DNA of 45,348 nt from an uncultured Gammaproteobacteria bacterium (lineage in GTDB: Bacteria > Pseudomonadota > Gammaproteobacteria > CAMYKB01). Below the pieces are notes generated by a model. It was not told the DNA's origin, made no database searches, and saw nothing but the letters and a program-made list of their open reading frames with translations. Positions 30,647 to 31,837 of this stretch are shown here, piece after piece. The stretch spans positions 1 through 45,348 of the forward strand of contig CAMYKB010000013.1 in assembly GCA_947258875.1 (NCBI GenBank), in the 5' to 3' direction. Positions within the stretch are counted from its first letter, which is position 1; each line of letters starts with the position of its first letter. The position numbers and the translations under genes are program-made.

Positions 30647-30665
30647 GCGGGAATAGCTCAGTTGG
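30647..30665 (+). pseudogene. tRNA-Gly 5' fragment joined to a palindromic sequence
   Basis: GCGGGAATAGCTCAGTTGG equals the first 19 bases of the intact tRNA-Gly at 30771. After the D-loop GTTGG the sequence leaves the tRNA and continues with hairpins GCTGC-GGTTGA-GCAGC and CCCGAC-AGGAC-GTCGGG, then AGGGATGGCATGC, until the intact gene starts 105 bases later. Breaking in the D loop and the AGGGATG block recall the tRNA-Ser elements. Confidence 0.75.
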
Positions 30666-30770
30666 GTGAGCTGCGGTTGAGCAGCGAACGGCCCGACAGG
30701 ACGTCGGGACTGGTGTTAAGTAGAACTCGCGCTGTTACGCTAGGGATGGCATGCAAAAGGTTACAAATAT

Positions 30771-30995: not shown

Positions 30996-31087
30996 TTTTT
31001 TGTCGGTTTCATAATTATCGGTTATGGCGGTACAATGTAAATGTTCACCCATGCCCGGGTGGCGAAATTGGTAGACGCAAGGGACTT

Positions 31088-31785
31088 ATTGGCATTGAGC
31101 ACCCAGTTTGGAAACAACTGGTGTGAATGGAGTCAAATTCGGGGAAACCTCAGCACATTAAAGGTGGTGGCAATCCCGAGCTAAGCCTTGGAGCGGTTCT
31201 TACTTCGATACGTTGGAGTAAGTGCGTGGCAGTTAGGGCAAAGAAGCCGCAGGTTTTTTAGTCGATTATCGCTTCTATTGCCGTTTATATGGTCAAGCTC
31301 GAGAGGGATGAGACCGCCGAGCCATTCAGTGTTTTGACACATCGAACAGCGATGCTCAAAAAAGTCTTCCTTGAGAAGTCGTCTTTTGAGCTTGTAGGTT
31401 TGTATGTGAAGTTCATTGTTTAGGTATTTTGCTATCGGTGTCCTTGGAGGAAGCGATTTCCCCTTATTCCATGCTTGCCCTGTAAAGTGTGAAGTATCCA
31501 GGCCAAAGTGTTTTATCGCTTTTCTGAGTACTTCGTAATTGCCGCCATAGGGTGCAACCTTAAGTTTCTGTAGAGCCTGTCTCATTGAGGCCGACGTTTT
31601 TATGGCTGCTTTGAGCTGTTTTTCAGAATACTTATGAAGTTTCACTCATATCACTCCCTGGAAAGTGTAGAGACTTGACGGCTCCTGCCTACGTCATGAC
31701 TGGCTTCATGATACGGTAAAGAGAAAGTCCAGACCACAAATGCGTTTTAAGTAAAAGCGCAGCAGCGAAAGCTGTAGCAGGTAAG
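31088..31785 (+). ncRNA. Group I intron (IC3-like) in tRNA-Leu(UAA)
   Basis: A 698-base self-splicing intron. Exon 1 ends in U and the intron ends in G, as group I chemistry needs. Core pairings can be read: P1 pairs exon CTT with GAG at 31097-31099 (U-G at the splice site); P2 is a hairpin at 31100-31123 capped by GGAAAC; P3 pairs GGAG 31129-31132 with CTCC 31682-31685; P4 pairs TCGGG 31139-31143 with CCCGA 31175-31179; P7 pairs GACTT 31672-31676 with AAGTC 31725-31729. The segments GGGGAAACC, CAATCCCGAGC and GTAGAGACTTGACGG resemble the cyanobacterial tRNA-Leu introns. An HNH gene fills about 465 bases between P4 and P7, probably the P6 loop, in antisense. Confidence 0.9.
31181..31645 (-). 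CDS. HNH homing endonuclease, antisense inside the group I intron
   Basis: A 154-residue HNH nuclease. The N-terminal half is a helical DNA-binding region (YGGNYEVLRKAIKHFGLDTS, then GQAWNKGKS) seen in phage HNH proteins. The C-terminal half is the HNH zinc finger: Cys100 and Cys103, His119 in LELDHINGN, Asn131 in LKNLRLL, and Cys136, Cys139, His140 in CPNCH. All key residues are present. The start is a GTG at 31645 with GGGAG nine bases upstream. It runs opposite to the tRNA, and its stop codon lies in the 3' strand region of P4. It probably cuts intronless tRNA-Leu genes and so spreads the intron; this is inferred from the family and location. Confidence 0.9.
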   Translation of the reverse strand: MKLHKYSEKQLKAAIKTSASMRQALQKLKVAPYGGNYEVLRKAIKHFGLDTSHFTGQAWNKGKSLPPRTPIAKYLNNELHIQTYKLKRRLLKEDFFEHRCSMCQNTEWLGGLIPLELDHINGNRSDNRLKNLRLLCPNCHALTPTYRSKNRSKA

Positions 31786-31837
31786 AAAATCCCTCGGTGG
31801 CAACACCGTGCCGGTTCGACTCCGGCCCCGGGCACCA

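Follow-up and report, generated by a model that had tools for sequence, protein, structure and literature searches.

An antisense HNH endonuclease gene in the group I intron of a gammaproteobacterial tRNA-Leu(UAA) gene and its relatives linked to phage tRNA-Leu(UAA) genes

A group I intron in the tRNA-Leu(UAA) gene of a Pseudomonas isolate was reportedly described by Vepritskiy in 2002. To our knowledge, the known introns of this tRNA gene, i.e., those of cyanobacteria, plastids, Beggiatoaceae, and Pseudomonas, contain no endonuclease gene. In Beggiatoaceae, group I introns were reported in tRNA-Leu-TAA and tRNA-Arg-TCT (PMC4853749). I-Ssp6803I, the endonuclease of the cyanobacterial tRNA-fMet intron, has a PD-(D/E)XK fold (Bonocora and Shub 2001, as cited in PMC3984707). 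Collaborative homing, in the description given in PMC10448857, includes F-CphI with the cyanophage psbA intron and a system of T3-like phages (Bonocora and Shub 2009, Zeng 2009). In T4-like phages, tRNA regions contain free-standing endonucleases such as SegB (PMC13096335).

The window, i.e., the whole stretch of 45,348 nucleotides analyzed here, derives from an uncultured gammaproteobacterium, and the features of its split tRNA gene are collected in Table 1. ARAGORN found no tRNA at 31053-31837 at default settings. With introns allowed, tRNA-Leu(taa) with a 698-base intron after U34 was predicted, and the joined exons folded as a complete tRNA-Leu(UAA) of 87 nt. By this prediction, the insertion lies between U34 and A35, which is the site of the cyanobacterial and plastid IC3 lineage. 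The gene order at the locus is uvrC-pgsA-tRNA-Gly-tRNA-Cys-tRNA-Leu. The preliminary description, made by reading the sequence, had already placed a gammaproteobacterial group I intron of 698 nt, ending in G, after U34 at this classic site and in this gene order. The tRNA finder that it proposed as a check recovered the split gene once introns were allowed, and ARAGORN and the sequence agreed on the boundaries. A prophage at the locus was considered, but the uvrC-pgsA-tRNA order is typical of host sequence and speaks against it. The 5' part of tRNA-Gly(GCC) occurs twice: besides the intact gene there is a copy at 30647-30671 (GCGGGAATAGCTCAGTTGG..GAGC), approximately 120 nt further upstream, which is perhaps a recombination remnant.

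Table 1. Features of the split tRNA-Leu(UAA) gene in the window, in window positions.
Feature	Position	Strand	Details	Basis
tRNA-Leu(UAA) 5' exon	31053-31087	+	Ends in U34; joined exons fold as tRNA-Leu(taa)	ARAGORN, introns allowed
Predicted cut site halves	31082-31792	+	GACTT 31083-31087, AAAATC 31786-31791, intron between	Anticodon-arm comparison
P1	31085-31099	+	Exon C32-U33-U34 (31085-31087) with intron G-A-G (31097-31099); U.G at splice site	Reading
Group I intron	31088-31785	+	698 nt, last base G	Boundaries by ARAGORN; core by covariation and model matches
P2 hairpin	31100-31123	+	GAAA tetraloop 31111-31114 (L2)	Reading
P3	31129-31134 with 31680-31685	+	GGAGUC with GGCUCC	4 of 6 pairs covary
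P4-P5	31138-31180	+	P4 is 31138-31143 with 31175-31180	Rfam hit, covariation, model match
P6 and P6a, 5' strands	31181-31193	+	HNH stop codon (minus strand, 31183-31181) overlaps P6	Covariation
HNH homing-endonuclease-like gene	31181-31645	-	154 codons; GTG start 31645, stop 31183-31181; fills P6 loop	
P6a and P6, 3' strands	31654-31665	+		Reading and covariation
Ribosome-binding-like GGGAG	31654-31658	-	8 nt before GTG; complement of P6a 3' strand	Reading
P7	31670-31675 with 31726-31730	+	5' strand G(A)GACU	Covariation
P8 hairpin	31686-31718	+		6 of 8 counted pairs covary
P9 region	31741-31774	+	Hairpins 31741-31761 and 31763-31774; GAAA tetraloop 31767-31770 (L9)	Reading
tRNA-Leu(UAA) 3' exon	31786-31837	+	CCA encoded	Reading and ARAGORN

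The intron was present once in the source genome. Besides the split gene, tRNA-Leu genes for UAG, CAA (two), CAG, and GAG were detected. A second, intact tRNA-Leu(UAA), which together with an unexpressed split copy would have spoken against the intron according to the preliminary description, was not found among the 39 tRNA hits of this 98.5%-complete genome, a 67-contig assembly in which tRNA-Tyr and a few other tRNAs were absent as well. Under established decoding rules, UUA is read by tRNA-Leu(UAA). The split gene is the only one found for it, so UUA codons would depend on splicing.

The conserved core helices of group I introns, i.e., P3, P4-P6, P7, and P8, were all present. The core of the window intron, with the P6 loop removed, was aligned with those of seven tRNA introns from other gammaproteobacteria, and a structure from P3 to P8 was drawn by hand for the covariation test. 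Across the eight rows, P3-P8 was paired in 97.5% of cells. Changes on both sides were seen in 20 of 36 pairs, against 8.3 ± 2.0 in shuffled alignments (0 of 500 as high) and at most 8 in slid structures. Of the pairings that the preliminary description had claimed, P1 and P2 are readable, and P3, P4, and P7 fall within the covarying part. The covariance-model check suggested there gave a divided result. The Rfam model Intron_gpI scored 16.4 bits on P4-P6, below the gathering cut-off of 50, which is a search threshold and no biological defining feature of group I introns. The low score is explained by the ORF, which splits P6, and by the breadth of the model. In contrast, a model of the related introns, trained on the eight rows with the window's own core among them, matched both halves of the intron (E = 8e-14 and 2e-9). 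Matches to mir-374, tRNA-Sec, and sR35 in the Rfam search were taken as chance. Every part needed for splicing is there, and the RNA would be expected to splice itself out and restore tRNA-Leu(UAA).

Introns matching the model were found in tRNA genes of 71 of 369 genomes of the class Gammaproteobacteria, and in approximately 25 of these, window included, the gene was tRNA-Leu(UAA), i.e., about 7% of the 369. A DNA pattern search in named genomes gave at least 119 stretches. Among the matches listed, most of the readable ones were tRNA-Leu(UAA) introns, and the groups represented were alpha-, beta-, and gammaproteobacteria, Bacteroidota, Acidobacteriota, and one planctomycete record. Because most of the named genomes are metagenome bins, an unusual phylum that occurs singly could reflect misbinning. 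The wider spread that the preliminary description offered as one option is real, but the novelty it saw in a gammaproteobacterial host is not, given this frequency and the published Beggiatoaceae introns. The tRNA-Leu(UAA) intron by itself is ordinary; the real find is the HNH gene, which was missing from the earlier account.

Related group I introns also interrupt gammaproteobacterial tRNA genes that unrefined ARAGORN anticodon calls assign to Arg, Gln, His, Met, Lys, and others (L085-L154). Three of these, in tRNA-Arg(UCU) (L147, L150, and L152, from genomes G234, G102, and G334), are 658-690 nt long and carry a sense-strand ORF of a PD-(D/E)XK endonuclease. This ORF matched PF11645 (E = 7e-40 for L150), is split in L152, and belongs to a family different from the HNH gene.

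The HNH ORF makes up two thirds of the intron length, and no promoter for it was evident. The predicted protein matched PF13392 modestly (E = 1e-6) and phrog_10822, a phage family of HNH endonucleases, nearly end to end (E = 4e-49). An HNH motif with conserved residues, predicted to be catalytic and zinc-binding, is present, i.e., H119, N127, and H140 together with four cysteines, all invariant in 35 relatives. The structure was predicted confidently (pLDDT 90), and the comparison with solved structures was weak, the best match being to McrA-type HNH enzymes (E = 0.12). By a profile search blind to tRNA, the family was found in 5 of the 369 class genomes, all five inside a tRNA-Leu(UAA) intron and one decayed. 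The class genomes and the named genomes together yielded 13 distinct intact chromosomal copies. Twelve of them lie antisense in P6, and the thirteenth (L265) lies antisense just downstream of the tRNA gene, whose intron has no ORF. The median pN was 0.23 and the median pS 0.82 over the 13 copies, which indicates that the minus-strand frame encodes a protein under constraint. It was considered whether the ORF might be a maturase, or functionless with a residual HNH resemblance, as the modest Pfam match and the decayed copies L130 and L226 would allow. This is scarcely plausible in view of the invariant HNH and cysteine residues, the strong purifying selection, and the presence of the gene outside introns, where a maturase role would make no sense. 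A plasmid origin of the gene was also considered and set aside, with one weak plasmid match for the protein.

Outside chromosomes, the relatives of the HNH gene were in viral contigs, some of them near genes of UvsX recombinase, DNA polymerase, thymidylate synthase, and RNA ligase. The nearest tRNA gene was tRNA-Leu(UAA) for 37 of the 46 non-redundant phage relatives, in most cases no more than about 110 nt away. The remaining tRNA genes in these phage stretches rarely included tRNA-Leu(UAA) (3 of about 69). The HNH endonuclease gene is thus encoded in, or linked to, its presumed target. More distant relatives (34-45% identity) were often beside other tRNA genes, other tRNA-Leu included. The general tendency of endonuclease genes to gather in tRNA-rich phage regions counts against a homing role.

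The HNH gene occupies several positions relative to tRNA-Leu(UAA). It was found beside intronless genes (L277, L279, and L303), and beside intron-containing ones in the phage loci L309, L295, and L338 and in the chromosomal L265. A free-standing endonuclease gene adjoining an intron-containing target, as in a collaborative homing pair, is therefore present among the phage relatives and in L265, while the window gene is internal to the intron. Other phage copies are internal as well, i.e., antisense in P6 (L274, L291, L294, L327, L328, and L383), sense in P6 (L316, L375, and L400, the last from the 595-kb phage LR756511), or sense before P4 (L305, L336, L337, and L353). These varied placements, next to the tRNA gene or within the intron in both orientations, make repeated entry of the gene into such introns probable.

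Viral contigs with tRNA-Leu(UAA) introns number in the dozens, and such introns were also detected in one isolated phage and in two huge-phage genomes; the huge-phage records are unannotated. The isolated phage is Agrobacterium phage Atu_ph07 (L746, 1494-1855), which has a 278-nt group I intron; neither the tRNA gene nor the intron is annotated in its record. The 735-kb phage record LR756503 has an intron of 205 nt. Both introns are too short for the HNH gene. Neither phage tRNA introns nor an HNH enzyme for tRNA-Leu were found in the open-licence literature. The split terminase large-subunit gene of Vibrio phage 11895-B1 (L749, 1201-1252) includes a segment with 85% identity to P4-P6 of the window intron, which suggests that phage protein genes may also harbour related cores. 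In two 37-kb viral contigs (L380 and L387), tRNA-Leu(UAA) introns resembling those of Burkholderia lie close to one end; these contigs are perhaps prophages integrated at or near this gene.

The intron and the HNH gene probably form a mobile homing system that is dedicated to tRNA-Leu(UAA) and common to phages and bacteria; splicing, the cut site, homing, and the direction of transfer are what we infer from sequence comparison. The intron RNA would fold into the group I core, splice itself out, and restore the only tRNA-Leu(UAA) found. The HNH enzyme would cut intronless tRNA-Leu(UAA) genes in the anticodon arm at GACTT/AAAATC, where the slash marks the intron insertion point. Repair of the cut copies would bring in the intron with the HNH gene. 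The intron, or a changed anticodon stem, would shield the carrier from the enzyme, and the HNH gene would have reached chromosomes from phages.

The predicted cut site was examined in phage tRNA-Leu(UAA) genes. GACTT/AAAATC was present in 26 of 27 intron-containing genes adjacent to an HNH gene, and in 189 of 219 control genes with no HNH gene nearby. Among HNH-adjacent intronless genes only 4 of 21 had it, with kinship among the phages controlled only in part. The control scan added two HNH-linked genes, L670 with the core motif and L689 without, and the linked intronless genes that retain the site are L277, L323, L330, L352, and L670. A second control set, drawn without the D-arm constraint, kept the site in 51 of 71 genes. 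Identical tRNA-shape filters weakened the contrast (4 of 13 against 51 of 71, p = 0.009), and under the strictest filter 3 of 6 linked intronless genes kept the site (p = 0.04). Altered stems in the intronless neighbours of HNH genes are expected if the enzyme cuts this sequence. The contrast is read here as protection, i.e., the enzyme would coexist with a target that the intron splits or that has been altered. The uniformity of the intron-bearing set could be due to splicing constraints, but these would not account for the alterations of the intronless set. The allele predicted to be cut is an intronless tRNA-Leu(UAA) gene with GACTTAAAATC, near U34/A35.

Alternatively, the HNH enzyme could be mainly a weapon that destroys the tRNA-Leu(UAA) genes of competing phages or hosts, with the intron or the altered stem as immunity. 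Free-standing copies do adjoin intronless, altered tRNA genes, and it is common for phage tRNA genes to have an intact site without an HNH gene in the vicinity. However, the chromosomal copies found are all in or directly beside the intron, and such a role for the enzyme as the main one is considered quite improbable. It overlaps with homing in any case, because cutting and homing are not exclusive.

In the phylogeny of the endonucleases, the 13 chromosomal copies formed a single clade (100/97) nested in phage diversity. The gene is accordingly of probable phage origin, and the tree points to entry from phages into chromosomes, which most simply would have happened once. The tree of intron cores was weakly supported; in it, gammaproteobacterial introns with and without the HNH gene were mixed, phage introns were scattered over several places, and betaproteobacterial introns grouped together. 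This betaproteobacterial cluster, and the absence of the ORF from most gammaproteobacterial introns at the tRNA-Leu(UAA) site, would suit an old and mostly vertical intron in which the HNH gene is a late passenger of a harmless P6 loop and does not move the intron. Such a history is unlikely, because in phages the gene is tied to tRNA-Leu(UAA) with or without an intron, and because the linked intronless genes are altered at the insertion point, which a site-neutral passenger would not predict.

Direct transfer from cyanobacteria to this gammaproteobacterial lineage was also weighed. The window intron is of the same class as the cyanobacterial tRNA-Leu introns, and the insertion site is identical. 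Among the cores in the tree, however, the window core was closest to other gammaproteobacterial ones (88% identity to L201), and many phyla, as well as phages, have an intron at this site. On this comparison, direct cyanobacterial transfer is very improbable. Horizontal movement of the intron as such is likely, and the evidence points to phages. Somewhat tentatively, phages may have moved the intron from one bacterial phylum to another, and the HNH family may preserve steps from a free-standing to an intron-encoded endonuclease, a proposal with slightly less than even odds. The findings suggest that the 'ancient' intron site of tRNA-Leu(UAA) is still under invasion, with phages helping.

The antisense HNH gene and its phage relatives provide a concrete means of intron transfer. 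A family that spans free-standing, neighbouring, and intron-encoded states, together with a predicted cut site, makes it possible to test how introns come by their endonucleases and by what route the tRNA-Leu(UAA) intron arrived in so many groups of bacteria.

The window intron shares the tRNA gene, the insertion point, the kind of core, and the terminal G with the introns of cyanobacteria, plastids, Beggiatoaceae (PMC4853749), and Pseudomonas, but differs from them in that P6 is filled by an HNH gene on the opposite strand. The phrog_10822 entry names no target, and the link to tRNA-Leu(UAA) comes from the present analysis. SegB-type enzymes are likewise phage homing endonucleases acting in a tRNA gene region; they belong to another enzyme family and are not associated with introns. 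Like I-Ssp6803I, the window HNH protein is an intron-encoded endonuclease presumably aimed at a tRNA anticodon region. However, I-Ssp6803I is a PD-(D/E)XK enzyme in tRNA-fMet, whereas the window gene encodes an HNH protein, lies antisense in tRNA-Leu(UAA), and has phage relatives. With the collaborative homing of psbA and T3-like phages, the family shares free-standing endonuclease genes that adjoin an intron inserted at the presumed target. Unlike those systems, it combines an HNH enzyme with a tRNA target and has free-standing, neighbouring, and intron-encoded members within one family, in phages and in bacteria.
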